DNA from: Cryomorpha ignava
GTDB taxonomy: Bacteria; Bacteroidota; Bacteroidia; Flavobacteriales_D; Cryomorphaceae
DNA: 64,000 bases
Direction: 5' to 3'
NCBI RefSeq assembly: GCF_010686655.1
Contig: NZ_JAAGVY010000005.1
Span: 55,001 to 119,000, forward strand
The notes below the pieces were generated by a model. That model saw only the letters and a list, made by a program, of their open reading frames with translations. It was not told the origin of the DNA and ran no database searches. Below, one piece after another: positions 410 to 53,793 of this stretch. The stretch's first letter is position 1, and every line of letters starts with the position of its first letter. A program made the translations under genes and the position numbers.

Positions 410-430
410 TAAATTTTCTACTTTTACCAA

Positions 431-443
431 TACGTCAAAGAAC
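431..443 (-). promoter_or_regulatory. boxA-like antitermination site before 23S
   Basis: The minus strand reads GTTCTTTGACGTA. This resembles the Nus-factor boxA of rRNA operons (E. coli type GCTCTTTAACA) and sits where a second boxA is expected, between the spacer tRNAs and 23S. The surrounding 20 nt recur exactly in the CRISPR leader near 42887-42906. Function is inferred from position and similarity only. Confidence 0.6.
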
Positions 444-467
444 GTTTTCAATCTACTGATTGAATAG

Positions 468-2470: not shown

Positions 2471-2482
2471 ATTTCAAAGAAC
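2471..2482 (-). promoter_or_regulatory. boxA-like antitermination site before 16S
   Basis: The minus strand reads GTTCTTTGAAAT about 85 nt upstream of the 16S 5' end, in the transcribed leader downstream of promoter P1. It shares GTTCTTTGA with the site before 23S and with the CRISPR leader. Role inferred from boxA similarity and position. Confidence 0.55.
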
Positions 2483-31500: not shown

Positions 31501-31530
31501 CAGAAGGTATTTTGGATATAAATGTGCTCT

Positions 31531-31570
31531 AAAAACAAAAGCCACAGTCCAATTTAAACTGTGGCTTTTG
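31531..31570 (-). terminator. Strong hairpin plus T run, minus strand
   Basis: CAAAAGCCACAGT (31536-31548) and ACTGTGGCTTTTG (31558-31570) pair perfectly over 13 bp with a 9-nt loop. On the minus strand TTTTT follows. No minus-strand protein gene feeds it, so it may end a non-coding transcript from the structured stretch at 31571-31790. Confidence 0.65.
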
Positions 31571-31790: not shown

Positions 31791-31892
31791 AACCTTACAA
31801 CTCTTAATAAAAATATTTTATATCTTAGCACTCTTAATGACCACTAATCGATGGCTCGTTATTAAAAACAAAAGCAATCAAAACTTAATAAT

Positions 31893-33869: not shown

Positions 33870-33890
33870 AACTCTAAAAACAAAACCGAT

Positions 33891-34904
33891 ATGAAATCAG
33901 GTATTAAAAACTCTTCCGACTTTCTCTTTATTTACGAAGCAATTCAATGTAATCCGAATGGCGATCCCGATCAGGAAAACAAACCACGTATGGATTATGA
34001 TACCAAAACCAATTTGGTAACCGACACGCGTGTAAAGCGATTTATACGTGACTACCTAAAATCAACAAGTGAAGATGAAGTCATCTTTGTTGATATGGAA
34101 GGCAATTCCAAAGTAAGCGTTGACAGTAAGTTGAGAGCAGTGGTTAAAAGACTCGTAGAAAATAAAGGCGAAATCGAAAAAGCCTTTTCAGAGAACTCCG
34201 AATCATTACAAATATTCAAAGATATCATTGAGAAAGAAAAAGACGCAGATGCCGTTTGGAAATTAATTACTGACAAAAAATTCAAGCACAAAGAAGTCAA
34301 CTATGAGTTACTGGCATATTTGGTGAAAGAAAAATTCATCGATATCCGAATGTTCGGGAGTGCTTTTGCAGTGGGAGGTTTTACAAAAGCATATACAGGG
34401 CCGATTCAACTAAACTGGGGATATTCATTCAATGAGGTCGAGTTGATGGATTCGAGTACAATCGTTACTATAATGAATGACGACAGTAGCACTTTTGGTA
34501 AAGATTATCGAGTCCACTACAGCCTACTTGGATTCAACGGCACCATCAATGCACCAGCAGCAAAATCAACTGGTCTGACCGACGATGATGTTACGATTTT
34601 CAGAAAAGCAATTTGGGAAAGCATTCCGGCTTCACCTACGCGATCAAAACTCAATCAATACCCAAAACTTTATCTCGAAATCGTTTATAATGAAGGAGTT
34701 TCTAATGGTCAATTCGGAGACTTGCGCAACTTTGTGGAAACGAGTCCAAAAGAAGGAGTTACCAGTAAGCAGGTTCGAAAGTTTAAAGAATTGAATATTG
34801 ATTTAGATGCTTTAAAAAAGCTGATTGCAGAAAATAAAGGAGCTGACAAAAAAATTAAAGAGGTTATTCTAACTACTTCGGCTGATTTTGATTTTTCGCT
34901 TTAA
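33891..34904 (+). CDS. cas7: CRISPR type I-B backbone protein Cas7 (Csh2)
   Basis: A 337-residue Cas7 of the Csh2 family, the RNA-binding RAMP protein that polymerises along the crRNA. The diagnostic start FIYEAIQCNPNGDPDQENKPRMD is followed by TDTRVKRFIRDYL, then the Gly-rich FGSAFAVGGFTKAYTGPIQ and the HYSLLGFNGTINAPAAKSTGL segment. Complete. It lies 21 nt after cas8b and 27 nt before cas5 on the same strand, one operon. Confidence 0.95.
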   Translation: MKSGIKNSSDFLFIYEAIQCNPNGDPDQENKPRMDYDTKTNLVTDTRVKRFIRDYLKSTSEDEVIFVDMEGNSKVSVDSKLRAVVKRLVENKGEIEKAFSENSESLQIFKDIIEKEKDADAVWKLITDKKFKHKEVNYELLAYLVKEKFIDIRMFGSAFAVGGFTKAYTGPIQLNWGYSFNEVELMDSSTIVTIMNDDSSTFGKDYRVHYSLLGFNGTINAPAAKSTGLTDDDVTIFRKAIWESIPASPTRSKLNQYPKLYLEIVYNEGVSNGQFGDLRNFVETSPKEGVTSKQVRKFKELNIDLDALKKLIAENKGADKKIKEVILTTSADFDFSL

Positions 34905-34931
34905 TAGAAAATCGAATCAAAACGAACGGTT

Positions 34932-35738
34932 ATGGAGATTCTAAGTTTTAAAATAAGCGGGAAAATGGCTCATTTTCGAAAATACTATGCAAATAATACA
35001 GCATTTAGTTTTTCGATTCCTCCGCGCACGACCCTGATGGGAATTGTAGCTGCTGCTATGGGCTGGCCAAAAGACAGCTATTATGAAGATTTGGCTTCTG
35101 AAAATATCCAATTCGGAATTCGTGTATTGAGTCCACTCAAGAAGAGTTTTCACCGCCTAAATTTATTGAGCATAAAGTCAACTGGTGATATGGCCAAAAA
35201 ATGGTCTTCTGATTTTCGGGGTGAAGGAGGGCGAATACAAACACCCTTTGAAATTGTGAGCGGTTGGAATATTGGAAAAGATGAAGTGTGCTATCAGGTT
35301 TTTCTAAAATCAAATGGGAATGGGAATGGGAATAGTGTATTTGATGATGTTAAAGCACATCTCTTGAACAAAGATCCGGTTTATAATATCACATTGGGTA
35401 CTGCAAATTTCTCGGCACGCATTTCAGAAATTCAGCTTTTCAAGGAAAGTGAAATCCAGGAGCAAACTTCCAATGATTTTATTTTCCTGCACTCGGCAGT
35501 ACCAACAGACTATGTAGAAGAATTGAGATTTGATAAGGATGATTACGACAGCTACAATTTCGTAGAAGAAGATATGCTTCCCGGCGATTTTATTGGCAAC
35601 AAGAATCGGGAGGTTCGGAAAATGAATAAATTGCTTTTTTCAACCACAGCTCATCCGTTACGCGTAAAGCTCTTAGGGTCATTTTTCGTTTTAGCTGATG
35701 GTGCTGATGAAATGAATATTCGATTTATTGACGAATGA
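34932..35738 (+). CDS. cas5: CRISPR type I-B protein Cas5 (Cas5h)
   Basis: A 268-residue Cas5. MEILSFKISGKMAHFRKYYANNTAFSF followed by IPPRTTLMGIVAAAMGW is the N-terminal RAMP fold and signature of Cas5h/Cas5b. The protein caps the 5' handle of the crRNA in Cascade. The C-terminal part KLLFSTTAHPLRVKLLGSFF contains a small beta domain. Its stop overlaps the cas3 start by 4 nt (ATGA), so the two are translationally coupled. Confidence 0.93.
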   Translation: MEILSFKISGKMAHFRKYYANNTAFSFSIPPRTTLMGIVAAAMGWPKDSYYEDLASENIQFGIRVLSPLKKSFHRLNLLSIKSTGDMAKKWSSDFRGEGGRIQTPFEIVSGWNIGKDEVCYQVFLKSNGNGNGNSVFDDVKAHLLNKDPVYNITLGTANFSARISEIQLFKESEIQEQTSNDFIFLHSAVPTDYVEELRFDKDDYDSYNFVEEDMLPGDFIGNKNREVRKMNKLLFSTTAHPLRVKLLGSFFVLADGADEMNIRFIDE

Positions 35739-38158
35739 CTTTCTATTCTCATAGTAAAACCGATGCTCATGGCGAAGCCTATGGTTCGAAAGAACTGAAA
35801 GTTCATGTGAATGGCGTAAAAGAAAAGGCACTCTTTCATCTCTCTGAAAATTTGGATTTGGGATTTCCCGATAATGAATTGAAAGAGTTAATTGAAGTCA
35901 TAGTTGATTTTCATGATCTTGGCAAATACACTTCTTATTTCCAAAATTATCTATTACAAAAGAAACCAATAGACAATTTACTCAAACGTCACGCCCAAAT
36001 CGGAGGTTTTGCAGCGTACAATTCTCTGATTGAAAAGAATGAGAAAAAGGCATTGATTGCACTTTATCTGATTTTTTTGCATCATAGTCAGCTCATCGAT
36101 ATTTTGGAAATAACCTCTAAGTTGGATTACGACTTAGACAAAATAATCCCTTCGCAAATTGATGATTTGAAAATTAGCTTTCAGGCAATTGAATCGGATT
36201 TGAATTTTGAGAATATTAAAATATTGTTGGTTTATACTGAAAAAAGAAAGCTACGCAAAGGCTACAGGCATTGGGCATTGAGAAATGCTTCAATCCAAGA
36301 CTATTTTTTGATTAATTATCTATTCTCACTTCTTATTGAAGGTGATAAATTGGATGCTTCAGACACACTTCCATACCATCTCAAAGCCATACTACATAAT
36401 GCGGTTGATAAACACTTTGGGAAGCCTGAAAAAGGGAATCAGAATCTCAAAGAGATGAGCAATAACGAACTGCGGAATTATTGCCGTGCCACCGTTATTT
36501 CAAATTTGGAAGATAGTGATATTCTGAATCGCTATATCTTTACCCTCACAGCACCAACAGGAATAGGGAAAACGATGACCGCTCTTGATTTTTCATTAAA
36601 GTTAAAAGCAAAAATTAAAAAGGTAGAAAATATTGAAACGCGAATAATCTACGCTCTTCCTTTTATCAATATCATCGAACAGGCTCTAAACGAATATCAG
36701 AAGATTTTACCAAAAGAGAACCGTATTCTCGGTCATTACCAATATGCAGATATTTTTGGCGATTCAGATGAGAAAGATAATCTGGATGGCGCGGAACAAG
36801 GTTATAACCAAAAAGCAATGGCACTCGACACTTGGCAGGCAGATGTGGTAATCACTTCATTTGTGCAGTTCTTTGAAACATTGATAGGAAATCGCAATAA
36901 ACTTTTAAAAAAATTTAATCATTTTGCCAATGCCATTATCATATTAGACGAGGTTCAAACACTGCGATTGGATCAGATGCCACTCTTGGGATCGGTCTTG
37001 TACTATCTTACAAAATTCTTAAAGACGAGAATAATATTGATGACCGCCACACGTCCGAAAATATTTGAATTGGCGCAATCTGAAATTTTAAATGAGGAAG
37101 GTGAAAAAGCTAATCCAAAAGAACTCTTGACAAATTACGAGGAAGTTTTTGCGGTTTTTAAACGAACCTCCATTCATCCGCTTTTAGACGATTTGAATGA
37201 AGAAAAAGCGGATAGAACAATAGAATTTGTGTCGAATATTTTTACAGACAAATGGAATTCCGAAAAATCCTGCTTATTGGTCTGTAATACCGTAGGCCGA
37301 TCTATAGAATTATACAAGTGCATAGCCGAATTTCTGGAAGAAAATGAGCTTTCAAATCCATTGTATTACCTCTCTACAAACATTATCCCAGCCCATCGGT
37401 TTGATCGGATAAGTGAAATTAAAAAGGACATCAATGTGCATCGGTCGCCAATTTTAGTTGCAACCCAAGTGGTTGAAGCCGGAGTAGATTTAGATTTTGA
37501 TATGGGTTTTCGGGATATTGGCCCCATTGATTCTATCATTCAGGTGGCGGGGCGTATAAATCGAAATAATGATTTAAACCGAAAGCATTCACCACTTTAT
37601 ATTGTTGACTTTGACAAGAGCATGACAATTAGGATATACGGACGGTTCTCTTATGATCAATCGAGGATGGCACTCAAAACGAAAGCCACATTCGGTGAAG
37701 AAGAATATTTGAATCTAATCAACCAATATTTTGACGGTGTAGCGGGAAGAAATTCATTTGATGTTTCAAGATGTTATTTCAACTCACTCAAGACTTTAAA
37801 ATATACGGCAGATGACAAAAGCGAGTGTCCAATAGGTTCTTTTCGAATTATTGAAGAATCAGATCGCTACGTTCCTGTTTTTATAGAGTTTGATGAAACC
37901 GCGGCAGATTCAAAAAAGGCATATTTGAAAAAGATAGTGAATGAAATGAGCAGTCTGGAGTTTAATCGAGATTGGAAACTCAAGTTTCAGCAATGTATAA
38001 TTTCAGCACCTAAATATTTATGTGACCATCTTGAACCGATAAACGAATATGAAGAAAACATTCTTTGTGTTCCGCAGTCAGAAATAGCTGAATTTTACAA
38101 TGAGCAAACCGGGCTTATCAGAAATATAAAAGAAGAAAAAAGTGTTTATATTTTATAA
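35735..38158 (+). CDS. cas3: CRISPR type I helicase-nuclease Cas3 (HD + DEAD/DEAH)
   Basis: An 807-residue effector nuclease. The N-terminal HD domain has DFHDLGKYTSYFQNYL (about 50-65, metal-binding His-Asp), then HAQIGGFAAYN and a LHHSQL His pair. The helicase part has Walker A APTGIGKT (about 271-278), motif II LDEVQT (DEVQ instead of DEAH), motif III MTATRP, and motif VI QVAGRINRNN. Length and order are normal for a fused Cas3' and Cas3''. It overlaps cas5 by 4 nt. The cas6 gene does not follow directly; a toxin-antitoxin tract intervenes. Confidence 0.95.
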   Translation: MTFYSHSKTDAHGEAYGSKELKVHVNGVKEKALFHLSENLDLGFPDNELKELIEVIVDFHDLGKYTSYFQNYLLQKKPIDNLLKRHAQIGGFAAYNSLIEKNEKKALIALYLIFLHHSQLIDILEITSKLDYDLDKIIPSQIDDLKISFQAIESDLNFENIKILLVYTEKRKLRKGYRHWALRNASIQDYFLINYLFSLLIEGDKLDASDTLPYHLKAILHNAVDKHFGKPEKGNQNLKEMSNNELRNYCRATVISNLEDSDILNRYIFTLTAPTGIGKTMTALDFSLKLKAKIKKVENIETRIIYALPFINIIEQALNEYQKILPKENRILGHYQYADIFGDSDEKDNLDGAEQGYNQKAMALDTWQADVVITSFVQFFETLIGNRNKLLKKFNHFANAIIILDEVQTLRLDQMPLLGSVLYYLTKFLKTRIILMTATRPKIFELAQSEILNEEGEKANPKELLTNYEEVFAVFKRTSIHPLLDDLNEEKADRTIEFVSNIFTDKWNSEKSCLLVCNTVGRSIELYKCIAEFLEENELSNPLYYLSTNIIPAHRFDRISEIKKDINVHRSPILVATQVVEAGVDLDFDMGFRDIGPIDSIIQVAGRINRNNDLNRKHSPLYIVDFDKSMTIRIYGRFSYDQSRMALKTKATFGEEEYLNLINQYFDGVAGRNSFDVSRCYFNSLKTLKYTADDKSECPIGSFRIIEESDRYVPVFIEFDETAADSKKAYLKKIVNEMSSLEFNRDWKLKFQQCIISAPKYLCDHLEPINEYEENILCVPQSEIAEFYNEQTGLIRNIKEEKSVYIL

Positions 38159-38232
38159 AAAATACCTTCAACCGAGGATGCTCTAACCATTTGCTAATAA
38201 TCCTTATCTTTAACTATTCAAAACAGATTTTT

Positions 38233-38487
38233 ATGAAAATCACCATATCAGGAAAAGACGAGAATTCCTTCAAACAAGTCGAGGACCTGGGGAAAAAGTT
38301 AGGCTTGCGTATTTCCAAAAAAGAGGATAAAGAAGATGTGAGATCGAAGGAGGAAAAAGTGAGATCTGAAAAACTCTACCAACTGATGACCGAGATGGCA
38401 AAATCGGGTGGAATTAAATCCATTCCAGACCCGGCTGCATGGCAGCGCGAGATTCGAAAAGATCGCACTTTACCCGGAAGAGAATAG
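38233..38487 (+). CDS. Orphan antitoxin-like protein (copy 1)
   Basis: An 84-residue protein starting at ATG 38233 (MKITISGKDENSFKQVED). It is about 60% identical to the second copy at 38583: shared parts are ITISGKD, VRSEKLYQLM/VRSEKLYLLM, and the tail DPAAWQREIRKDRTLPGRE, a DNA-binding linker plus the C-terminal toxin-wrapping segment common in antitoxins of PIN toxins. Its own toxin gene, three bases downstream, is decayed. Upstream lies the box TATCTTTA, also present before copy 2. It might cross-neutralise the surviving toxin. Confidence 0.75.
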   Translation: MKITISGKDENSFKQVEDLGKKLGLRISKKEDKEDVRSKEEKVRSEKLYQLMTEMAKSGGIKSIPDPAAWQREIRKDRTLPGRE

Positions 38488-38489
38488 CC

Positions 38490-38556
38490 ATGGAAGTACT
38501 TTTAGATTCAATCATTTTGTGATATGCTGGCGAGCCTTCTGCAAGATTTGTATCTT
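38490..38556 (+). pseudogene. Remnant of a PIN-domain toxin
   Basis: The frame starts MEVLLDSIIL, then TGA, and continues YAGEPSARFVSL. This is the typical first 20 residues of a PIN toxin (LLDSNIIIYA...). The in-frame stop and the missing body, replaced directly by the promoter region of the second antitoxin copy (both units share TATCTTTAACTATTC), show that the toxin was lost by a deletion between duplicated modules. Confidence 0.65.
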
Positions 38557-38582
38557 TAACTATTCATTTAAATATTCAGATT

Positions 38583-38837
38583 ATGGAAATCACCATTTCA
38601 GGAAAAGACAAGAACTTACTGAGACAAGTTGAAAAACTCGCCAAAAAGTTAGGTTTAAATATTTCGAAAACAGAAGAAGAAGTGAACAGAGAAGAACAAA
38701 AAGTAAGATCTGAAAAACTCTATCTTCTTATGGTAGAAATGGCCACTTCGGGTGCATTTAGCACAATTAAAGATCCGATTTCGTGGCAGCGTGAACAAAG
38801 AAAAGATAAACCCTTACCCGGTAGAGAAGAGTCATGA
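38583..38837 (+). CDS. Antitoxin of the PIN toxin (copy 2)
   Basis: An 84-residue antitoxin starting MEITISGKDKNLLRQVEKLAKKLGL (predicted coiled/helical N-terminus) and ending with DPISWQREQRKDKPLPGREES, which should wrap the toxin active site. It is a tandem paralogue of copy 1. The stop overlaps the toxin ATG by 4 nt (ATGA), the usual antitoxin-first coupling. As in other modules of this design it probably represses its own promoter; TATCTTTA at about 38551 is the likely -7 box. Confidence 0.8.
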   Translation: MEITISGKDKNLLRQVEKLAKKLGLNISKTEEEVNREEQKVRSEKLYLLMVEMATSGAFSTIKDPISWQREQRKDKPLPGREES

Positions 38838-39172
38838 GGATTCTTATCGACGCAAATATTATAATCTATTCTGCCCACAAAGACAAGGAGTCGCTTAGAA
38901 AGTGGCTTCAAAAACAAAGTCTTTCAATATCATCCATAAACCAGCTTGAGGTATTGGGTTATCATAAAATCACTAAGGAAGAAATTGTATTATCGAAAAA
39001 TTTTTTTTCACTATGCCAGATAATTTCTATAACCCAAACTATTATAGAGGAAGCTATTAAATTTCGGCAAGAAAAGAGTATGAGTCTCGGAGATTCAATT
39101 GTCGCGGCGAGCGCAAAAGAGAATAATCTACCAATAGCCACCGCCAACATCAAAGACTTCGAACATATTTAA
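38834..39172 (+). CDS. PIN-domain toxin (VapC-like ribonuclease)
   Basis: A 112-residue PIN-domain protein. The acidic metal-binding residues are visible: Asp in ILIDANIIIYS (residue 5-6), Glu in INQLEVLGY (about 38), Asp in SLGDSIVAAS (about 86) and Asp in TANIKDFEHI (about 108). VapC-like PIN toxins cut tRNA or rRNA. The gene is coupled to the antitoxin upstream. It lies between cas3 and cas6 in the same direction, 59 bp before cas6, so it could be co-transcribed with the cas genes. Confidence 0.88.
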   Translation: MRILIDANIIIYSAHKDKESLRKWLQKQSLSISSINQLEVLGYHKITKEEIVLSKNFFSLCQIISITQTIIEEAIKFRQEKSMSLGDSIVAASAKENNLPIATANIKDFEHI

Positions 39173-39231
39173 AACTTAAATTTGATAAATCCCCTTAACC
39201 AATAATTTTTTACAGAAAAGCTTATACCCTT

Positions 39232-39912
39232 ATGCCTTCCACAACTACCCAAAACCTTTCGGTAACACAAATAAAATTTCCGGAAATACAATTGCACACC
39301 CGCGATGCACACAAGCTACGCGGATATTTCGGAAATGTATTTAAGGATAATTCTCCGCTTCTTCACAATCATTACGATTCTGGGCAATTGCGTTATCGGT
39401 ATCCCTTGGTGCAATACAAAATATTAAACAACACCCCCACCCTCGTGGCAATTGACGAAGGAGCAGAATTGCTGACCCAACTTTTTTTGAAAATACAGGA
39501 AATCGATATTGACGGAAAGAAATATCCTATTCAAAATAAACACATTACATCCAAAAATTACCCAATCGGTATTGGCGAAAGCCTATTTACCTATACGTTT
39601 GAAACGCTATGGATGGCACTTAACCAAGAGAATTATAAAAAGTACACCGAGGCAGAAGATTCCGAAAAACGCAAAATATTGAATCGGATTTTAGTAGGCA
39701 ATATCCTGTCATTTTTTAAAAGTACCGGATTGATGCTCGAACCCGATGAGCGCATTTTGGCAACGACCGAAGTGGAACCAAAAAAAACCAAGTTTAAAGA
39801 TCAGTCTATGGTTGCTTTTACCGGAAGGTTTACGACAAATGCGCAGTTGCCGGATTTTATTGGCATCGGCAAATCGGTATCACGCGGGTTTGGAACCATT
39901 CTACAAGTCTGA
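39232..39912 (+). CDS. cas6: CRISPR endoribonuclease Cas6
   Basis: A 226-residue RAMP protein that cuts the repeat RNA to give crRNAs. The C-terminal Gly-rich loop GIGKSVSRGFGTI is the Cas6 signature, and the N-terminal part has HTRDAHKLRGYFGNVF with a candidate catalytic His. The repeat in the downstream array ends ATTGAAAC, so the predicted crRNA 5' tag is 8 nt. Unlike common type I-B operons, cas6 lies after cas3 and is bracketed by toxin-antitoxin genes. Confidence 0.85.
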   Translation: MPSTTTQNLSVTQIKFPEIQLHTRDAHKLRGYFGNVFKDNSPLLHNHYDSGQLRYRYPLVQYKILNNTPTLVAIDEGAELLTQLFLKIQEIDIDGKKYPIQNKHITSKNYPIGIGESLFTYTFETLWMALNQENYKKYTEAEDSEKRKILNRILVGNILSFFKSTGLMLEPDERILATTEVEPKKTKFKDQSMVAFTGRFTTNAQLPDFIGIGKSVSRGFGTILQV

Positions 39913-40015
39913 TATTTTTTTATGGAAATGAAAAAATATCGATAATTCGCAAATGATATTTGCATAAAATCATTGAAAAGACGGATCAAAAGCAATTCAA
40001 AATTATTACAATCCG

Positions 40016-40023
40016 TAAATTTG
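40016..40023 (+). promoter_or_regulatory. -7 box before the AbiE-like module
   Basis: TAAATTTG (TAnnTTTG) lies 14 nt before the ATG at 40038, in the 125-bp gap after cas6. If used, it would drive the AbiE-like pair together with cas1-cas2-cas4 separately from the interference genes. Confidence 0.35.
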
Positions 40024-40037
40024 ACGACCTTTAACTC

Positions 40038-40328
40038 ATGGAACTTCTTTTTACCAAAGCTATTTTCTGGGATACAGACATTTCAAAGTTGGATCCAAGC
40101 CTACACTCTAAATACATCATAGAGAAGGTTTTAAATTACGGCACTTTAGAGGATTGGAAGAAGCTAAAACAATTGTATTCTGAAGAAAGGATACTAGCTG
40201 AAGCTAAAAAAATAAGGGATTTACACCCTAAAACACTGAGCTTTCTAAGCATTTATTATAACGTTTCTAAAACAGAATTTCATTGCTATACAGAAATACC
40301 ATCCACCCGGACACATTTTCCTTATTGA
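40038..40328 (+). CDS. DUF6922-like / AbiEi-type antitoxin, small
   Basis: A 96-residue helical protein (FWDTDISKLDPSLHSKYIIEKVLNYGTLEDWKKLKQLY). This N-terminal pattern is typical for small proteins encoded directly before AbiEii-like nucleotidyltransferase toxins in Bacteroidota, where they act as presumed antitoxins. It overlaps the next gene by 46 nt in a different frame, so the two are translationally coupled. It has no wHTH-plus-C-terminal domain of full AbiEi. The assignment rests on pattern and position. Confidence 0.72.
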   Translation: MELLFTKAIFWDTDISKLDPSLHSKYIIEKVLNYGTLEDWKKLKQLYSEERILAEAKKIRDLHPKTLSFLSIYYNVSKTEFHCYTEIPSTRTHFPY

Positions 40329-40900
40329 AGGAATTGCAACAAAACCCGGCTTTAGGTGATTGCCCCTTAGCTGGTGGCACAGCACTTGCGTTGCAACTCG
40401 GTCACCGCATTTCGCTGGATCTTGACTTTTTTAGCAGTCGAGATTTAAACCTGAATGAGATAAAAAAAGTATTCGAAAGCTATCCGACTGCAATGGAATT
40501 GGCCACATCAAAAAATATACTCACTTGGAGTATCAATGACGTAAAAGTAGATGTGGTAAATTATACTTACCCCACTTTAAGACCATTAATAGAGAATGGC
40601 GGGATTGTTTTGTACAGCATGGAAGATATTGCGGCAATGAAATTGGAAGCAATTAAAGGAAGAGGGCGAAAACGCGATTTTTACGATCTGTATTTTTTAT
40701 TGAAAAAATTCGACCTTGCTAAAATGTTGCAATTCAACAAGGAAAAATATAATCGGAGCAATATGTTTATGGTTATTAAGAGTATGACTTTTTTTGAAGA
40801 TGCCAATACTGATCCTGATGTTATGGTTCCAAAAGATACCGAAAAGGTGGATTGGGAATTGGTAAAAAAGGAAATAATAAAGGCGGTTAAATCAATCTGA
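40283..40900 (+). CDS. AbiEii-like nucleotidyltransferase toxin
   Basis: A 205-residue protein with a TTG start inside the antitoxin gene. The nucleotidyltransferase core is GGTALALQLGHRISLDLDFFS (about 31-51; GG motif and the catalytic Asp pair in DLDF). A VDVVNYTYP strand and DIAAMKLEAIKGRGRKRDFYDLYFL, the conserved C-terminal AbiEii block, follow. AbiEii-type toxins transfer nucleotides to RNA (tRNA CCA ends in studied cases) and give phage abortive infection. The stop codon overlaps the cas1 ATG (TGATG), coupling it to cas1. Confidence 0.88.
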   Translation: MLYRNTIHPDTFSLLKELQQNPALGDCPLAGGTALALQLGHRISLDLDFFSSRDLNLNEIKKVFESYPTAMELATSKNILTWSINDVKVDVVNYTYPTLRPLIENGGIVLYSMEDIAAMKLEAIKGRGRKRDFYDLYFLLKKFDLAKMLQFNKEKYNRSNMFMVIKSMTFFEDANTDPDVMVPKDTEKVDWELVKKEIIKAVKSI

Positions 40901-41907
40901 TGCAAATATTTATCAACACGTATGGCAGTTATTTACATGTAAAGGAAGACATGTTTGAAGTAAAAACGCGCCCCGATCCCAAACAGAAAGATAAAATAAA
41001 AGTGAACCATATTGCTGCACACAAAATCACTTCGTTCGTGGTGAGCAAAGGCGCGGCAATAAGTACAGATGCCATTGCCCTTGCGGTAAAACACAATATT
41101 GATATCGTTGTAGTTGAAAATAACGGTCATCCGCTTGGACGATTTTGGCACAGTAAGCTGGGTAGCACCACCAAAATACGGAAGCGTCAGCTCGAGGTGA
41201 GCATGGATGCCGTGGGATTGGAATGGATAAAACAATGGCTTATTGTCAAACTTCAAAATCAGGCTGAATATCTGGGTGATTTGCGGAAGCACCGACCTAA
41301 AATCTCGATAACGCTGGCTGAATCGGAAAAACGAATATTAGAGCAATGTGAGAAAATTGCCGAATTAAAAGCGGACAGCATCTCTGATGTTGCGGAGCGC
41401 ATAAGGGGTCTTGAGGGAACTGCGGGGCGTTTGTATTTCGGCGGACTTTCAAAAAGCATTCCCGAAGAGTTCAACTTTAAAGGTCGTAGCTTTAGGCCTG
41501 CACAAGACCCCTTTAACGCTATGCTCAACTACGCTTATGGCATACTCTATTCGCGTACTGAGCGGGCACTGATGCTTGCGGGACTGGATCCTTATGTGGG
41601 TTTTTTGCACCGCGACGATTACAATTCAAAGAGCCTGGTTTTCGATTTTATTGAGCCTTATCGCATACATGCAGAACGCTGTGTATTTGCTCTTTTTTCA
41701 AAAAAACAGGTCAATAAAACTTTTTTTGAGGATATTTCGGGAGGGGTTTCGCTTAATGCGGATGGAAAACCGGTATTGGTAGAGCATTTTATGAAATATC
41801 TTGATCAGGATACCATTCGCCATAAGGGGCGCAACCAAACCCGGTACAACGCTATGCAGCTCGATGCGCACAACTTTGCCAACACTTTAATAGCCAAAGA
41901 AGAATGA
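40900..41907 (+). CDS. cas1: CRISPR integrase Cas1 (type I-B)
   Basis: A 335-residue Cas1, metal-dependent spacer integrase working with Cas2. Catalytic residues are in LEGTAGRLYF (Glu about 171), FLHRDDYN (His about 236) and FDFIEPYR (Asp/Glu about 250). The N-terminal beta domain has INTYGSYLHVKEDMFEV. Complete length. It starts within the stop codon of the AbiEii-like gene and overlaps cas2 by 4 nt. Confidence 0.97.
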   Translation: MQIFINTYGSYLHVKEDMFEVKTRPDPKQKDKIKVNHIAAHKITSFVVSKGAAISTDAIALAVKHNIDIVVVENNGHPLGRFWHSKLGSTTKIRKRQLEVSMDAVGLEWIKQWLIVKLQNQAEYLGDLRKHRPKISITLAESEKRILEQCEKIAELKADSISDVAERIRGLEGTAGRLYFGGLSKSIPEEFNFKGRSFRPAQDPFNAMLNYAYGILYSRTERALMLAGLDPYVGFLHRDDYNSKSLVFDFIEPYRIHAERCVFALFSKKQVNKTFFEDISGGVSLNADGKPVLVEHFMKYLDQDTIRHKGRNQTRYNAMQLDAHNFANTLIAKEE

Positions 41908-42194
41908 TAATCTGGGTAATGTACGATATCAAAAAGGATAAGGCGCGCAGTAAAATCGCGAAAATATGCAAACAATCGGGGCTATACCGAGTGCAGTACA
42001 GCGTGTTTTTGGGTCAGCTTTCTGCAAATTCAAAAGACAGTTTGTGGATACAAATTGAGGAATTGATTGATGAAGAAACCGACTCGGTATATATTTTCCC
42101 AATGTCGAAAAACGAGCTTCAAGACACGATTTTATTGGGACAAGCTTTTGACAAGGATATGGTTACTGATGAAGTAAAAGCGTTGTTTTTCTGA
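41904..42194 (+). CDS. cas2: CRISPR adaptation protein Cas2
   Basis: A 96-residue Cas2 with ferredoxin-like fold. MIIWVMYDIKKDKARSKIAKICKQ contains the conserved Asp at the end of strand 1, then GLYRVQYSVFLG, the usual YRVQxSVF block, and a hydrophobic strand with VYIFPMS. It dimerises between two Cas1 dimers. Overlaps cas1 by 4 nt and cas4 by 1 nt. Confidence 0.95.
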   Translation: MIIWVMYDIKKDKARSKIAKICKQSGLYRVQYSVFLGQLSANSKDSLWIQIEELIDEETDSVYIFPMSKNELQDTILLGQAFDKDMVTDEVKALFF

Positions 42195-42769
42195 TGTTTA
42201 GCATAACGCCCTCACATATTATCGAATATTTGTATTGTGCGCGGTACACTTTTTTTGAATATGTGCTGGCTGTGCCGCAAAATGAAGACAAGTACTACAA
42301 GGTACAGCGGGGTAGAACGTTGCACGACGAGAAGCTTGAACGTAACAAAGGATATTTGCGGAAGCGTATAGGCGCAGTAGAAAAATGGGAAGACCAATAT
42401 CTTACCAATGCCACAATGCGCGGGAGAATAGATGAGGTTTTAAAGCTTGAGGACGGGAGTTTTGCACCCTTGGATTATAAGTTTGCGGAGTACAAAGACA
42501 AGCTTTACGACACGTATAAGCAGCAGTTGTTTTGCTATGCTGTGCTGATAGAGGATAATTGGGGAGCAAAGGTCAATCGCGGATTTATTGTTTACATCCG
42601 CAGCAAGAATAAATTATTGGAAGTTGAGATAAAACAGTCTGACAAGGAATTGATTCGTGAGAGCATTTCGGGATTTTTGGAGATTGTGGAGAAAAATCAT
42701 TTCCCAAAAGCCACGAAATATAAGCGAAGATGTGTAAATTGCACCTATCGGAATATTTGCACGAAGTAA
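42194..42769 (+). CDS. cas4: CRISPR protein Cas4 (RecB-like, Fe-S)
   Basis: A 191-residue Cas4 exonuclease, which trims prespacers and selects the PAM side. The Fe-S cysteines are Cys16 (YLYCARYTFFEY) and the C-terminal cluster CVNCTYRNIC. The RecB nuclease motifs are visible: His in RGRTLHDEK, Asp in RGRIDEVL, PLDYKFAEY with Asp-Lys, and QLFCYAVL. It is the last cas gene and ends about 200 bp before the first repeat, an unusual place after cas2. Confidence 0.95.
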   Translation: MFSITPSHIIEYLYCARYTFFEYVLAVPQNEDKYYKVQRGRTLHDEKLERNKGYLRKRIGAVEKWEDQYLTNATMRGRIDEVLKLEDGSFAPLDYKFAEYKDKLYDTYKQQLFCYAVLIEDNWGAKVNRGFIVYIRSKNKLLEVEIKQSDKELIRESISGFLEIVEKNHFPKATKYKRRCVNCTYRNICTK

Positions 42770-42974
42770 TGAAAAAGGTTGTGGGAATCCGGTAGTAGAT
42801 TTATAAAAGGAGAAATTAATTTTGGAGTCAACTAATTATATTACAACACCTTGCTGTCGCAAAAACGAACGGAAAGCGGGTGTAAAAACGTTCTTTGACG
42901 TATTAGAAACAATGAATAAGGGAAATGACTCAATATGTAACGGTCTGTTATTTAGCTGTTTGAGAGCTGATCGG
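42770..42974 (+). promoter_or_regulatory. CRISPR leader
   Basis: A 205-bp AT-rich non-coding stretch between cas4 and the first repeat. It contains the boxA-like word at 42890-42905. The array repeats are perfect at this end and degenerate at the other, so transcription and spacer addition start here. A promoter was not identified with certainty; TTTG at about 42833 has no good -7 partner. Confidence 0.8.
42887..42906 (+). promoter_or_regulatory. boxA-like antitermination site in the CRISPR leader
   Basis: AAAACGTTCTTTGACGTATT is identical over 20 nt to the sequence before 23S rRNA (minus strand, about 427-447). It lies about 70 nt before the first repeat, in the part that should be transcribed. 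boxA recruits Nus factors to prevent Rho termination of untranslated RNA. Function here is inferred. Confidence 0.65.
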
Positions 42975-45900
42975 CTCAAAGACCAAATCCAGTAAGAACA
43001 AGGATTGAAACTTTCTTCACGATAAAAAGACATGACGGCTTTCATTCTCAAAGACCAAATCCAGTAAGAACAAGGATTGAAACATAAGCTAAACAACATG
43101 ATCACAAAAATTTACAATCTCAAAGACCAAATCCAGTAAGAACAAGGATTGAAACACGCGCAAGGAACGCCAACGGGTGAAACGGCGGATATCTCAAAGA
43201 CCAAATCCAGTAAGAACAAGGATTGAAACGTTTTCCTTTGTTTGGCATGTCAATTGGCCTTGTTCCTCAAAGACCAAATCCAGTAAGAACAAGGATTGAA
43301 ACTATCAGACAGACAAAGCGGCGGTTGATTCACAAGTTCTCAAAGACCAAATCCAGTAAGAACAAGGATTGAAACGAGAGTAATCCACTTGCAAGGCTGG
43401 CTATAAGGCTGCTCAAAGACCAAATCCAGTAAGAACAAGGATTGAAACAAATCGTCTATAAAAAGGCCACCTTTCAAGAAACCCTCAAAGACCAAATCCA
43501 GTAAGAACAAGGATTGAAACACAACATCCGGTTTCGCATGACGAATACCGGTAGTGCTCAAAGACCAAATCCAGTAAGAACAAGGATTGAAACAAAAGAA
43601 TGGTCAGGAGATTAACGATAAGACGGCTTCTCAAAGACCAAATCCAGTAAGAACAAGGATTGAAACTTGAGTCATGTGATGAGGCGATTATGGATCAGCT
43701 TACTCAAAGACCAAATCCAGTAAGAACAAGGATTGAAACTGGTGACTAACGGATACGCTATTCAGCAGCAGGAAACTCAAAGACCAAATCCAGTAAGAAC
43801 AAGGATTGAAACAAGTCTAAAATAAATCAGTAATGAAAAAAGCTAGAGCTCAAAGACCAAATCCAGTAAGAACAAGGATTGAAACTGAATCCTTCCTGAT
43901 CTGCTATGAAGGCATTGTTTCTCAAAGACCAAATCCAGTAAGAACAAGGATTGAAACCAGCAGAAGATGAGATGCTTATAAAACGAGACTACTCTCAAAG
44001 ACCAAATCCAGTAAGAACAAGGATTGAAACATTTCTACGGGCGACAAAGAAGTCTCGCAACCGTGTTCTCAAAGACCAAATCCAGTAAGAACAAGGATTG
44101 AAACTGATGGTTTGATTAATTTGTGTCACCACATTAGTGTACTCAAAGACCAAATCCAGTAAGAACAAGGATTGAAACCGTTGCTTCCAAGGCCGCCTGT
44201 TGTGTCACGGATGCCTCAAAGACCAAATCCAGTAAGAACAAGGATTGAAACAACCAGCAGCCTCCGGCGTTGTTGACGGAGCCGAAACTCAAAGACCAAA
44301 TCCAGTAAGAACAAGGATTGAAACTTATATCCTTTGATTGATTCACGTGTTGGGTATTTCTCAAAGACCAAATCCAGTAAGAACAAGGATTGAAACTTTA
44401 TTCTTTTGTTTTTTGGTGCTTTCATTTGATTTCTCAAAGACCAAATCCAGTAAGAACAAGGATTGAAACCAACAACAAGGTTATGTTTCAAAGGAAATTT
44501 TTGAACTCAAAGACCAAATCCAGTAAGAACAAGGATTGAAACCAAGTCATAACCAACCAGCAACGGTGCATAGTCATTTCTCAAAGACCAAATCCAGTAA
44601 GAACAAGGATTGAAACTTGATTCCATTGATGCAAGATCCGTTGGTTGTTGATCCCTCAAAGACCAAATCCAGTAAGAACAAGGATTGAAACCGGAAGCCA
44701 TCGCTCCAAAAGGGGCGGAGCTGTTTAGCTCAAAGACCAAATCCAGTAAGAACAAGGATTGAAACAACTAAAAAAATGATGTACAAAGGATTCTACGATG
44801 TCTCAAAGACCAAATCCAGTAAGAACAAGGATTGAAACCCGGCTTCAATTAGTGCGTCCTGTCTTTCCTTAGCCTCAAAGACCAAATCCAGTAAGAACAA
44901 GGATTGAAACCCGTTCCTGTGGCGTTTGCTGCATTGTAACACTCTCTCTCAAAGACCAAATCCAGTAAGAACAAGGATTGAAACATTTCTACGGGCGACA
45001 AAGAAGTCTCGCAACCGTGTCTCAAAGACCAAATCCAGTAAGAACAAGGATTGAAACATCTAAGCTCCGCAATTTTGCTTTCAGCTCTCGCTCTCAAAGA
45101 CCAAATCCAGTAAGAACAAGGATTGAAACTTATAACGGGTTAAGAGGGACTGCGTTTTCATACTACTCAAAGACCAAATCCAGTAAGAACAAGGATTGAA
45201 ACTTTCCTCCTGTCTCATAGTCATCTTTTTCCCAACAAGCTCAAAGACCAAATCCAGTAAGAACAAGGATTGAAACCATATCCAGAATCGGCTTCGCTAT
45301 TACCAGATTTTGCTCAAAGACCAAATCCAGTAAGAACAAGGATTGAAACCTCCAGCCTCTCCAGACTTAAACGCTTCTGGATTCGCTCAAAGACCAAATC
45401 CAGTAAGAACAAGGATTGAAACCACCATCGTAAAGAATGGCTGTGAAGTCTATTTGGACTCAAAGACCAAATCCAGTAAGAACAAGGATTGAAACGTGCT
45501 TGTATTTCTTTTAGTTGCATTAATTCCAGTACTCTCAAAGACCAAATCCAGTAAGAACAAGGATTGAAACTACCACTATTGCCGATTGGAATGCTTACTA
45601 CACTCTCAAAGACCAAATCCAGTAAGAACAAGGATTGAAACCGATTAAAGTCCAGTTTGAAAGCTCCGGATCGTATCTCAAAGACCAAATCCAGTAAGAA
45701 CAAGGATTGAAACCTACCGTAGAGGTATTCGGTATCTGGGGCCAATAGAGCTCAAAGACCAAATCCAGTAAGAACAAGGATTGAAACTAATTAAAAAAAA
45801 TGGAATAAACGTACAGGAATATACGCTCAAAGACCAAATCCAGTAAGAACAAGGATTGAAACTTCACGGTACTACTATTAATGTGGGACAGCTGCGCCGG

Positions 45901-48900
45901 CTCAAAGACCAAATCCAGTAAGAACAAGGATTGAAACACGCCGAGCTTCAGTTTTTTGTACCTGGCTTAAATGCTCAAAGACCAAATCCAGTAAGAACAA
46001 GGATTGAAACGCTCCATTAGTGGGCTTTCTTCTTCGTAGGTAAGCGCTCAAAGACCAAATCCAGTAAGAACAAGGATTGAAACGTCCAAAGAGCGATTAG
46101 TCCCTCGTTAGAGTATCCTCTCAAAGACCAAATCCAGTAAGAACAAGGATTGAAACCTTCTTGGATGGTCATATTATTAAGCTCCATAATATCTCAAAGA
46201 CCAAATCCAGTAAGAACAAGGATTGAAACAAGCCACGTCACCGAGTAAAGGTGACTCTAAACTACTCAAAGACCAAATCCAGTAAGAACAAGGATTGAAA
46301 CCAAGATAATGCGGGTCGATTGACTCCTGTAATAACACTCAAAGACCAAATCCAGTAAGAACAAGGATTGAAACCTAATGCTGCTCACCCTTATCGCGAT
46401 AATGCTATTCTCAAAGACCAAATCCAGTAAGAACAAGGATTGAAACATCTTACTGTTTGTTCATACATAACGCTATGTTTTCTCAAAGACCAAATCCAGT
46501 AAGAACAAGGATTGAAACAAGCTGAATATACGCGACTTTTTTACGCTGACAATGCTCAAAGACCAAATCCAGTAAGAACAAGGATTGAAACCTGATGATG
46601 CAGCTTTGCCGTATAACCCGAGAGGGTCTCAAAGACCAAATCCAGTAAGAACAAGGATTGAAACTCAATACATTTGGCAATTTTAAGCTGTGTAGCATTT
46701 CTCAAAGACCAAATCCAGTAAGAACAAGGATTGAAACTTATTATCTGATTGTGCGCTATGGCGTTGAAGTCGGCTCAAAGACCAAATCCAGTAAGAACAA
46801 GGATTGAAACATATCCGTTAAATCTATATTACACTTTCTGAAGTGCCTCAAAGACCAAATCCAGTAAGAACAAGGATTGAAACTGGTTCGAGATCTTGGG
46901 CTTTATGGCGATACCACGAACTCAAAGACCAAATCCAGTAAGAACAAGGATTGAAACTTTCGGCGATTTGATAGAATGATCCTGCATAGAATACTCAAAG
47001 ACCAAATCCAGTAAGAACAAGGATTGAAACTATATGTGGGGCGCACAGAAATCTTCCCTATTACCACTCAAAGACCAAATCCAGTAAGAACAAGGATTGA
47101 AACATGTTAGATATTTCGCTATCGTTGCTGATTGAATATCTCAAAGACCAAATCCAGTAAGAACAAGGATTGAAACCGGTGATAGGTCTGCCAATATGGT
47201 CGCGAATAACTTCTCAAAGACCAAATCCAGTAAGAACAAGGATTGAAACTCCCGATGAACTTGAAAACAGCTGGTTGATGTTCTTCTCAAAGACCAAATC
47301 CAGTAAGAACAAGGATTGAAACTTATCTGTGTTCATAATTCAAAGTTTTTGTGTTATCTCAAAGACCAAATCCAGTAAGAACAAGGATTGAAACAAAAAC
47401 GCGCATATAAAGCAGCGCATACCAATGAAAACTCAAAGACCAAATCCAGTAAGAACAAGGATTGAAACTATTCAGCATCATCAAACCCAAATTTATTAAG
47501 CCAGCTCAAAGACCAAATCCAGTAAGAACAAGGATTGAAACCAGAATTACGCAAATGAAGGTGATAAAATATTAGATCTCAAAGACCAAATCCAGTAAGA
47601 ACAAGGATTGAAACCCTACATAGCACAGCGCAGCCACCTGCCAGAGCGATCTCAAAGACCAAATCCAGTAAGAACAAGGATTGAAACATGTTATGGGTTA
47701 ATCTTTTAATCATGTGGGAATTTCTCAAAGACCAAATCCAGTAAGAACAAGGATTGAAACGGGCAATCGCTAATTACATAAGACCGCACACAGCCACTCA
47801 AAGACCAAATCCAGTAAGAACAAGGATTGAAACTAGATAAAAATGGAGCTAAAGCACAGGCCGTATTGGCTCAAAGACCAAATCCAGTAAGAACAAGGAT
47901 TGAAACCACTCAATCACGACTAATGAATGAGTATTTACAAGTCTCAAAGACCAAATCCAGTAAGAACAAGGATTGAAACAAGAAGAAAAAATATGAGCAA
48001 TCGTGTCCACGCTCCCTCAAAGACCAAATCCAGTAAGAACAAGGATTGAAACGCTATTCAAACTCATTGCCGGTAATTCCGTTTAAACTCAAAGACCAAA
48101 TCCAGTAAGAACAAGGATTGAAACTTAAAAACGATCTGCTCCATTATACACCGGTTAAAACTCAAAGACCAAATCCAGTAAGAACAAGGATTGAAACATT
48201 ACTCTATACAAACGATAATAGAATAGAAAAATCTCAAAGACCAAATCCAGTAAGAACAAGGATTGAAACTGCTTCTATACTTGAAGAATGTTAGAGATAG
48301 TAAACACTCAAAGACCAAATCCAGTAAGAACAAGGATTGAAACAAGCATTTGTTTTTGTTGCCAACTCTTGTGCTTCAACAACTCAAAGACCAAATCCAG
48401 TAAGAACAAGGATTGAAACGTGCAATCAAGTCGGGTGGCAGCTTCTCATCATCTCTCAAAGACCAAATCCAGTAAGAACAAGGATTGAAACTTCTGATGT
48501 GTTTATACACCCTTCCTTCGTTGTCTGTCTCAAAGACCAAATCCAGTAAGAACAAGGATTGAAACACCTCTTTTAAAAAGGCTTTCATATCTTCCTCGCT
48601 CTCAAAGACCAAATCCAGTAAGAACAAGGATTGAAACGAATAGATTATTGTAAAGGCTTTGGCCAATAGCATTCTCAAAGACCAAATCCAGTAAGAACAA
48701 GGATTGAAACTTAAACATGCTACTGAGTAAAGACGATATTCCGAAAAGCTCAAAGACCAAATCCAGTAAGAACAAGGATTGAAACTGGGATTTGTCATCC
48801 GCTCAATACTTGGACGAATTACTCAAAGACCAAATCCAGTAAGAACAAGGATTGAAACAGAGCACACCTACTCTTTTGGAGATTAAAGAAAATTCTCAAA

Positions 48901-51900
48901 GACCAAATCCAGTAAGAACAAGGATTGAAACGTGTTTGGTGTTTGGAAAGCGCTTATCTAATAACCACTCAAAGACCAAATCCAGTAAGAACAAGGATTG
49001 AAACTTTCGGGGGTTTTTAGTTTAATGGGTACGATAAGCGCTCAAAGACCAAATCCAGTAAGAACAAGGATTGAAACTTATGCTGTAGCCACCATTATCA
49101 ATGAGGGCTCGTGACTCAAAGACCAAATCCAGTAAGAACAAGGATTGAAACACCTTTTAATTCATTCACTTAATATTGAAAAAAATGCTCAAAGACCAAA
49201 TCCAGTAAGAACAAGGATTGAAACAATTAATTGGTGTAAACAAAAAAGAATACGGGGTGGTCTCAAAGACCAAATCCAGTAAGAACAAGGATTGAAACTA
49301 GGTGTAAATGCCCTTTCGGCGAATGGTGATTTTTCTCAAAGACCAAATCCAGTAAGAACAAGGATTGAAACCCAAAGAAGACATTCGTTCTGGTTGCACA
49401 AACAGAACTCAAAGACCAAATCCAGTAAGAACAAGGATTGAAACAAATAAGACTCACCTTAGAAGCCTACAAAGTAGAACTCAAAGACCAAATCCAGTAA
49501 GAACAAGGATTGAAACTCACATCAAAGTAGCCTTCTACCAGGTACACTTCTCTCAAAGACCAAATCCAGTAAGAACAAGGATTGAAACGAGCTATTACGC
49601 GCATACTTCAAAGAATATCGCCCGCTCAAAGACCAAATCCAGTAAGAACAAGGATTGAAACTCTGCTATCGGATTACAACGGATGGGGCAACGATCTTCT
49701 CAAAGACCAAATCCAGTAAGAACAAGGATTGAAACTCATATAGTTCATTGCCTGGACCGTTGATGTACTTCTCAAAGACCAAATCCAGTAAGAACAAGGA
49801 TTGAAACGTAATAAATTCGTGGCTATTATAGAACAAAACACCCTCAAAGACCAAATCCAGTAAGAACAAGGATTGAAACAAGCCTGCACATCCTTGCGTA
49901 AGTTGTAGTTTTGTACTCAAAGACCAAATCCAGTAAGAACAAGGATTGAAACTGTCCATAAAAAGTTTCAGTATAAGCAAGTTCAATGCTCAAAGACCAA
50001 ATCCAGTAAGAACAAGGATTGAAACAACGCTACTACTACTGCTAAAGATTTGGCTGTAGCCCTCAAAGACCAAATCCAGTAAGAACAAGGATTGAAACGT
50101 CAGCGAAGATCCTATTTTGATTTCCGCTTTTTGGCTCAAAGACCAAATCCAGTAAGAACAAGGATTGAAACAAGCCTGCACATCCTTGCGTAAGTTGTAG
50201 TTTTGTACTCAAAGACCAAATCCAGTAAGAACAAGGATTGAAACTTATTCGGCGATCTGCTGCGGATAGTTCGGGCATGCTCAAAGACCAAATCCAGTAA
50301 GAACAAGGATTGAAACAACCAGTTGGCAGCAAAGGGAGCACATACTGGCTCTCTCAAAGACCAAATCCAGTAAGAACAAGGATTGAAACGCCATTATTTT
50401 TCAGGTATTTGATTGTCGCGCATGCCTCAAAGACCAAATCCAGTAAGAACAAGGATTGAAACTTGATAGGTGGAAGTCCTTGTCAGGGATTTTCTTCTCA
50501 AAGACCAAATCCAGTAAGAACAAGGATTGAAACATGAAATCAACTATCTGCCCAACAAATAATTTTGCCTCAAAGACCAAATCCAGTAAGAACAAGGATT
50601 GAAACTTGAATACCCGCTGGGCAGTTTTCCTACCGGTGTACTCAAAGACCAAATCCAGTAAGAACAAGGATTGAAACTAGACGAGCTGCATCAGGCTGAT
50701 AAAACCATCGAGTCTCAAAGACCAAATCCAGTAAGAACAAGGATTGAAACAAATAAGACTCACCTTAGAAGCCTACAAAGTAGAAGCTCAAAGACCAAAT
50801 CCAGTAAGAACAAGGATTGAAACACACAGGAAGTTGTAGCGTTTTAAATATGAGAGTTTCTCAAAGACCAAATCCAGTAAGAACAAGGATTGAAACATGA
50901 ACAGAATTAAGCACTTGTAGGTAACGTGTTGCCTCAAAGACCAAATCCAGTAAGAACAAGGATTGAAACAAAACAACACAGTTGTAAGCACGGAAATAAA
51001 GGGCCTCAAAGACCAAATCCAGTAAGAACAAGGATTGAAACATTCCGCCTTAAAGTTTATCCAGTCAGCATATGAATCTCAAAGACCAAATCCAGTAAGA
51101 ACAAGGATTGAAACTCATCCGGCATTTGACTGTTCAAAGAAACGGTTTGCTCAAAGACCAAATCCAGTAAGAACAAGGATTGAAACAATGCGAAAAACGC
51201 GGAATTGATGGATATGAAAAAACGCTCAAAGACCAAATCCAGTAAGAACAAGGATTGAAACAGCCTGAATGAATAGTGAGTTTTTGACATGAAAAGACTC
51301 AAAGACCAAATCCAGTAAGAACAAGGATTGAAACAAATATACGCTCGACGCAAAAGCAAGTGCAACAGTGCTCAAAGACCAAATCCAGTAAGAACAAGGA
51401 TTGAAACTACTCGGAAACAACATAGCCCCAAATGCCCGAAAACTCAAAGACCAAATCCAGTAAGAACAAGGATTGAAACAAAAACAGAGTGATACACGTG
51501 CCTGCAGAAGCTTCACTCAAAGACCAAATCCAGTAAGAACAAGGATTGAAACCTGAATTTTCAAACACGGTAAAGAAAGCAATTACCACTCAAAGACCAA
51601 ATCCAGTAAGAACAAGGATTGAAACTAAATCCTTCCTGATCTGCTATGAAGGCATTGTTTGCCTCAAAGACCAAATCCAGTAAGAACAAGGATTGAAACG
51701 CTGAAAGAATTGGCGGGTAAGGTCGTCGGCTTGCTCTCAAAGACCAAATCCAGTAAGAACAAGGATTGAAACAAACAAGAGCACTTACTGCCGGAGGTTT
51801 GCAATACGCTTAAAGACCAAATCCAGTAAGAACAAGGATTGAAACGACGCCTTCCAATCACCAATCACTAAAAACTAACCACTCAGAGACCAAATCCAGT

Positions 51901-51991
51901 AAGAACAAGGATTGAAAAGACGCCTTCCAATCACCAATCACTAAAAACTAACCACTCAGAGACCAAATCCAGTAAGAACAAGGATTGAAAC
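42975..51991 (+). CRISPR. CRISPR array, about 124 repeats and 123 spacers
   Basis: The 37-nt repeat begins CTCAAAGACCAAATCCAG and ends GGATTGAAAC. Spacers are mostly 34-37 nt, and the mean unit is 73.0 bp. By my line-by-line count there are 124 repeats. Nearly all are identical. At the distal end repeat 122 (51809) has CTTAAAG, repeats 123 and 124 (51882, 51955) have CTCAGAG, and repeat 123 ends GAAAA. The last two spacers are identical. Four other spacers occur twice. The array follows cas4 and its leader, so it is a type I-B array read on the plus strand. The predicted 8-nt crRNA 5' tag is ATTGAAAC. The open frames across it are artefacts of the repeat. Confidence 0.99.
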
Positions 51992-53203: not shown

Positions 53204-53793
53204 AACATTAAAATTAAGTGGTTTGAATAGCTATCGAGCGAATGCAAAAAGGTGAACCAAATATGCATTTTTTTATTGAAGAACAATCTTACTGTTTCGC
53301 TTTCGCTGAAAAATCTCCATTGCGCAAAAGTCCAATTGCATTATAATTCAATTCAACACCACTTATTATGTTACTTAACAACCACCCACAAGAGGGTCTC
53401 TTTAAATCTCGATAGACCTAGCGACCCCGAATGATTATCTACTGAAAACTAATTACTCAATACCAACTACTCAATACTAACTACTCAATACTAACTACTC
53501 AATACCAACTACTCAATACCAACTACTCAATACTAACTACTCAATACCAAATACTCAATACCAACTACTCAATACCAACTTCCTGGAAAGGAGTTACCAT
53601 ACAAGTTTCTCTTTATGTTAGCTTATCAGATCGTAACATCAGAGTACCAAAATGAATGAATATCATTTTGTAAATTGCAATTATCCTTAAAAATACTTAC
53701 GTTTATGGCGTCCTGTGATTTAACCCGTCGCGCGATAGATTAACCAGACCTCAAACAAAGAAGAAATGCTTACACATTAACCACAGTGCCAAC
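53204..53793 (+). other. Gap between lipoprotein and desulfurase genes
   Basis: About 590 bp with no gene. It holds the 14-bp minisatellite at 53454-53580. The part at 53580-53793 should contain the promoter of the desulfurase-like gene, but no TAnnTTTG box is clear. Confidence 0.6.
53454..53580 (+). repeat. Minisatellite, nine copies of a 14-bp unit
   Basis: The unit TACTCAATACCAAC is repeated nine times head to tail, with a C/T alternation at position 11 and one AAA variant. It is non-coding and lies 220 bp before the next gene. Confidence 0.9.

Follow-up and report, generated by a model that had tools for sequence, protein, structure and literature searches.

An rRNA-type boxA motif in the leaders of type I-B CRISPR arrays of Bacteroidota

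The boxA element normally precedes bacterial ribosomal RNA genes, where it probably prevents a premature end of transcription. The locus described here raises the question of why the sequence found before the 23S rRNA gene should also stand in the leader of a CRISPR array. We analyzed one stretch of DNA of Cryomorpha ignava, called the window below (64,000 nt, positions 55,001 to 119,000 of contig NZ_JAAGVY010000005.1). The features on which the question rests are the following:

429..448, minus strand: 23S-type boxA in the 16S-23S spacer, the identical 20-mer (spacer consensus GTTCTTTGACATATTG)
2474..2482, minus strand: 16S-leader boxA GTTCTTTGAAATTTG, with a promoter-like pair TTTG-N18-TATCTTTG upstream
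31893..42769, plus strand: type I-B cas8b, cas7, cas5, cas3, cas6, cas1, cas2 and cas4 (PADLOC), with non-cas ORFs interspersed
42770..42974, plus strand: CRISPR leader, 205 nt, from the end of cas4 (42769) to the first repeat
42885..42904, plus strand: 20-mer common to this leader and the 23S leader, also present in leaders of relatives
42890-42905, plus strand: boxA core GTTCTTTGACGTATTA, 85 nt before the first repeat
42975..51991, plus strand: CRISPR array of about 9 kb, with 124 repeats of 37 nt and 123 spacers

The assignment to type I-B relies on all eight cas genes being found beside the array by PADLOC matches. The array contains 121 distinct spacers among its 123, and its repeats are degenerate at the trailer end (51809-51991, plus strand), where the last spacer is also duplicated. 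The surroundings of the cas genes are themselves composite. Upstream, an ORF at 31436-31792 (plus strand) shares its first 12 residues, MLDTLLKIGEWQ, with cas8b at 31893 and appears from this likeness to duplicate the beginning of cas8b in truncated form. Two non-cas genes lie within the cas operon (38834-39172 and 40283-40900, plus strand): one is PIN-domain-like by eye and has no PADLOC match, the other is an AbiEii-like nucleotidyltransferase according to PADLOC, and they are possibly parts of toxin-antitoxin pairs. A match of the Rfam model DUF2693 over the leader was taken as due to chance (18.8 bits versus 81.3).

A first-pass annotation of the window had pointed out the 20-mer shared by the CRISPR leader and the 23S leader. 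Both copies are real, though its coordinates were off by 2 nt: the window has two exact copies of AAAACGTTCTTTGACGTATT and no more, at 42885-42904 (plus strand) and 429-448 (minus strand). Their surroundings are as had been described, the 23S gene starting at 412 (minus strand) and the array at 42975, leaving 70 nt between the end of the 20-mer and the first repeat. The related 16S site reported there is also present, GTTCTTTGAAATTTG beginning at 2482 (minus strand), 106 nt before the 16S anchor. Across the 5.0-Mb genome the core 15-mer GTTCTTTGACNTATT has only two sites, one upstream of 23S and one in the CRISPR leader, and the identity between these two regions stops at the edges of the 20-mer. 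Chance had been called very improbable, and indeed 100 shuffled versions of the window contain no copy of AAAACGTTCTTTGACGTATT, even when up to 3 mismatches are allowed; the exactness of the match, on the other hand, is partly explained by both copies lying near a shared consensus. This follows from three other genomes (G449, G468, G547), in which the leader and 23S versions differ. We thus rejected the idea that a leader copies the 23S boxA of its own genome as a general rule.

To describe this consensus we used the rRNA ends of the window as queries against 35 array-bearing genomes, and obtained 25 matches for 16S and 18 for 23S. In many 16S leaders the site reads GTTCTTTGAA with a TTG after it; in many 16S-23S spacers it reads GTTCTTTGACATATTG, the consensus of 13 such spacer sites outside the window's genome. 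No boxA site was found in several of the rRNA leaders and spacers of the genomes searched. The two kinds of site can be told apart by the base after GTTCTTTGA or its one-base variant, which is C in 13/13 spacer sites versus 4/19 16S sites, and in 15/17 I-B leaders. A weight matrix was built from these 13 spacer sites only, with the window excluded and no CRISPR sequence included. Scored with it, the leader site of the window (core G[TC]TCTTT[GA]A, identical at 20/20 nt to the boxA of its own 23S) reaches p 2e-4. Judged by its sequence, the leader copy is a 23S-type boxA. A search with the 23S model RF02541 failed to recover the 23S gene of this very genome and is thus uninformative.

The distribution of the motif around CRISPR arrays was then examined with this matrix. 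For a first set (set A), we searched 396 Bacteroidia genomes for Cas1 and obtained a match in 130; 138 regions, covering a part of the listed Cas1 places, were retrieved, together with 2 from an order search. The 146 sources scanned yielded 118 arrays in 103 sources (one a duplicate of the array of the window). Each p-value gives the rank of a match relative to 9,792 non-array pieces of 300 nt from the same loci. Over 196 array flanks, 6 matches at p<0.001 point inward, into the array, versus 0 outward; at p<0.01 the figures are 14 versus 3. Two further order searches covered 291 and 295 genomes and added 55 places, 40 of which were scanned. Of their 45 flanks, 10 have a match at p<0.001 and 15 have one at p<0.01, and no match points outward.

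When arrays are strictly oriented, matches at p<0.01 in type I/III leaders amount to 8/33 in set A (window included), 13/24 in set B and 3/3 in the plasmids of set C, versus 0/25, 0/12 and 0/3 trailers respectively. Leaving the window aside, the motif is present in 23/59 leaders and 0/39 trailers (Fisher p 1.1e-6, arrays being counted singly although related genomes and multiple arrays per locus are not all independent). The enrichment in leaders of relatives, which the annotation had proposed to look for, is thus found. Sets B and C were picked as relatives of the Cas1 of the window, so their rates are not representative of the phylum. The orientation is also marked: in the 60 oriented type I/III leaders, window included, 24 matches are in the sense direction and 1 in antisense. 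These matches span several CRISPR subtypes and families, and 36/60 leaders have none at p<0.01.

Counts depend to some extent on how arrays are oriented. A looser rule gives 8/36 leaders versus 2/29 trailers for set A, which alone does not reach significance (p 0.16), and 14/25 versus 0/13 for set B. From the rule of the script, we judged the two trailer matches of set A to be those of loci L079 and L089, and we take them for orientation errors. The strict count dropped five arrays whose repeats fit the end rule on both strands (two of L068, and one each of L079, L089 and L266); in L079, L089 and L266 the motif lies at the array end which has intact repeats. Arrays bearing the motif were also observed on plasmids of Runella sp. 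SP2 and Runella rosea (87 nt from the repeat in both), Aureispira sp. CCB-E (65 nt) and Persicobacter psychrovividus (86 nt). In a Cytophagales MAG whose Cas1 is 70% identical, the motif is again at 87 nt; in a MAG labelled Flavobacteriales (Cas1 79%), the contig ends before the array and the leader is thus unreadable.

These results bear on the simplest competing explanation, namely a chance likeness or a promoter element of the -33 type without any Nus function. GTTCTTTG does have TTTG in common with the -33/-7 boxes of Bacteroidota, and the 9-mer GTTCTTTGA taken alone shows no enrichment over the genome, with 46 sites versus 50 for the reversed control. Against this, the extended motif is limited to two loci of the genome, it is enriched in leaders, and it precedes 23S, where no promoter is expected. 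We regard this explanation as extremely improbable. A scan of 18 leaders for TTTG-N18-22-TAnnTTTG revealed no promoter exceeding the chance level upstream of boxA: the mean score was 7.33 versus 7.01 for resampled sequences, the 16S controls being mixed (3/7 with a full match). Many leaders have a conserved block TTACGGAAA lying, when counted by eye, about 31 nt before boxA, which may mark a promoter. A conserved block ACGGAAA is present at 42869-42875 (plus strand), at a distance from boxA, again counted by eye, of 20 nt in the window and usually 28-32 nt in relatives, many of which also carry AATTTATTT further upstream of it; these two blocks are possibly promoter or integration sites.

The motif was further considered within the group of loci most similar to that of the window. 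This I-B group comprises 24 loci (Cas1 identity of about 49% or more), five of which (L036, L267, L294, L295 and L298) have no readable leader, owing to a contig end or to no array being called. All 19 readable leaders show the motif, which is significant in 18 of them: 15 reach p<0.01 in the flank scan, and L264, L296 and L301 do so when the site itself is scored. The remaining one, L268, has a weak match (p 0.13), and its best match is at exactly 87 nt. Copies are degenerate in L037, L092 and L268.

The place of the motif in these leaders is nearly fixed: it lies 85-90 nt from the first repeat in the 15 I-B leaders measured, and at exactly 87 nt in 10, despite weak conservation of the sequence in between. 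Such a near-constant spacing is not known to be required for boxA function, and it suggests that some additional or other constraint may act. One candidate is that the motif serves, or serves also, as a DNA anchor for spacer integration, bound by a host factor or by Cas1-Cas2-Cas4 at a fixed distance from the repeat. The existence of conserved blocks upstream (ACGGAAA) and at the leader-repeat junction would agree with such a role. But distances vary between 42 and 297 nt among the p<0.01 matches of the other groups, and the motif reproduces an rRNA element including its 3' block, which rRNA spacers carry without any integration function. We hold a role as anchor to be rather unlikely.

A second particularity of the I-B leaders is an open reading frame which runs through the motif. 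In the window it is as follows:

42822..42995, plus strand: open frame across boxA, 57 codons, with a TTG start that is a guess and a TAA stop within the first repeat

It is unusual for a boxA to lie within an open reading frame. Frame +1 of the I-B leaders reads through the motif as TTC TTT GAC GTA TTG (FFDVL), and from the motif to the repeat this frame is free of stops in 15/17 leaders (window included) versus 1/17 and 2/17 for the other frames. Summed over the 17 leaders, stops number 5 in frame +1 versus 48 and 34, the two interrupted cases being L265 and L270. Random rotation gives a mean of 4.1 open leaders and at most 10, and none of 5000 rotations reaches 15. When leaders are collapsed by hand into 14 lineages the frame is open in 12 (p ~2e-6 before correction for the choice of frame). 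By reading, it ends inside the first repeat in 14/15 cases, L299 running into masked sequence, and the end of the frame would consequently be unchanged by the insertion of a new spacer.

Could the motif be merely the by-product of a conserved small leader protein containing the FFDVL codons? Besides the openness of the frame, two results speak for such a protein: the column-shuffle coding score (14 leaders) has a z of 3.3, which falls to 2.7 when the motif is left out, and L089, L266 and L305 have a common 52-codon ATG frame. The variation of the last motif codon among leucine codons also fits coding better than the rRNA pattern. However, the dN/dS values of these three loci are 0.45, 0.98 and 0.52, and the peptide of the window shows by eye little likeness to the others outside FFDVL. 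The information at the three codon positions (0.45, 0.30 and 0.42) is unlike the typical coding pattern. By eye, no start codon is conserved throughout the I-B frames, and no Pfam family exceeds the cut-off for four leader peptides.

The codons of the motif are more decisive. Codon 1 ends in C in 17/18 leaders, the codons used there having a mean usage of 0.27, and codon 3 likewise ends in C in 17/18. The wobble positions of codons 1-3 are the most fixed of all, while first and second positions vary, with changes of residue. Since the synonymous positions are nearly fixed, the nucleotides themselves are constrained and not the peptide alone; this constraint at the wobble positions of codons 1 and 3, together with the residue changes, implies that the frame does not account for the boxA core as a mere side effect. 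Furthermore, in 14/16 other leaders bearing the motif (13/16 at p<0.01) the frame reaches a stop ahead of the repeat. We thus discarded a conserved microprotein as the only explanation for the motif, a by-product origin being largely refuted and in our view very improbable, and we retain the frame as an overlay on boxA.

How such an overlay could operate is a matter for tentative proposals. The I-B leader might contain a short translated frame through boxA, ribosomes protecting the first ~150 nt of the transcript before a Nus complex loaded at boxA takes over; on the sequence features given above, we consider this possible but doubtful. In such a hand-over the Nus complex, which shares S10 with the ribosome, would cover the untranslated array, and the fixed spacing would serve either the hand-over or spacer integration. 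CRISPR leaders are described as non-coding in passages of one report (PMC12638026), and this usual view would change if the leader frame were translated.

The explanation that we favor for the motif itself is antitermination: the I-B leader would contain a Bacteroidota boxA of the 23S-spacer type which recruits NusB/S10-dependent antitermination for the synthesis of the long crRNA precursor. We consider it probable. It is suggested by the likeness to rRNA sites and by published work linking boxA and CRISPR in other bacteria. Once the leader is transcribed, NusB and S10 would attach to the boxA in the RNA; an rRNA-type antitermination complex, also comprising NusA, NusG and SuhB, would then stay on the polymerase, and the 9-kb untranslated precursor could be completed despite Rho. 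A NusB gene was identified: a 315-aa ORF contains a NusB domain (TIGR01951, E 2.5e-24, 87.8 bits, 0.5 under the curated cut-off). The same five proteins, NusB, S10, NusA, NusG and SuhB, are given as the rrn antitermination complex in the portion of PMC12691694 that describes it. With respect to rRNA sites, the leader copy has the same sequence as the 23S-spacer boxA of its own genome but precedes a CRISPR array instead of rRNA.

Comparable arrangements exist in other phyla. Stringer et al. (eLife 2020) reportedly described boxA-dependent antitermination of enterobacterial CRISPR arrays and proposed that it acts against Rho. Those arrays likewise have an rRNA-type boxA in the leader, ahead of a long array; the present case differs by the phylum, Bacteroidota, by the 23S type of the boxA with its conserved TATTG-like 3' block, by a spacing that stays close to 87 nt throughout the I-B group and by the overlap with an open frame. 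In Legionella, according to the part of PMC7862264 concerned with these constructs, a boxA placed before a synthetic array raised precursor crRNA about 10-fold. It was tested at -58 and -90, similar to the -85 of the window, and a boxA, GTTCTTTAAAA, also stands before a natural array in the leader of Legionella pneumophila Lens (PMC7862264, same part). The Legionella element belongs to a different phylum, has A and not G after CTTT, and is given there without a TATTG block. The control of array transcription is presented as little known beyond E. coli in a section of PMC10883916. Our literature search (boxA with CRISPR or Bacteroidota, leader motifs, small ORFs in leaders) returned no Bacteroidota CRISPR boxA among the matches listed. 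The present results, tested statistically with a CRISPR-free matrix, would add Bacteroidota to the bacteria in which boxA controls CRISPR arrays, and they give the form of boxA to be mutated.

The other CRISPR types of the phylum offer a useful comparison. Type II arrays with repeats of 46-47 nt have no match to the matrix, in 0/33 upstream and 0/46 downstream flanks. With 36-nt repeats, type II arrays have 3/13 upstream and 0/14 downstream, and type V arrays 0/4 and 0/4. Under the looser rule, the contrast in set A between type I/III (8/36) and long-repeat type II (0/33) is significant (Fisher p 0.005). The sequence TAnnTTTG, the -7 box of Bacteroidota promoters, is present in 22/50 of the type II repeats of 46-47 nt (loci of other genomes, L121-L204), with a TTG upstream of it within the same repeat in those inspected. 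These repeats are likely to contain internal promoters, as is reported for type II-C arrays in passages of PMC12638026. The likeness to the type II-C case would lie in an alternative way of expressing long arrays within the same phylum, by a repeat-internal promoter and no boxA, unlike the leader boxA of the window. This distribution fits the idea that boxA is kept where a single transcript started in the leader must span the array, and the contrast between type I/III and type II suggests two solutions to the expression of long arrays in one phylum.

Two other elements of the window may be mentioned. Between tRNA-Ala and the 23S boxA, at 468-535 (minus strand), lies a third, degenerate tRNA-like sequence, which matches the Rfam tRNA model with 36.3 bits and receives no ARAGORN call. 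Beyond the array, at 53439-53580, a 14-nt unit, CTACTCAATACCAA, is present in 10 tandem copies.
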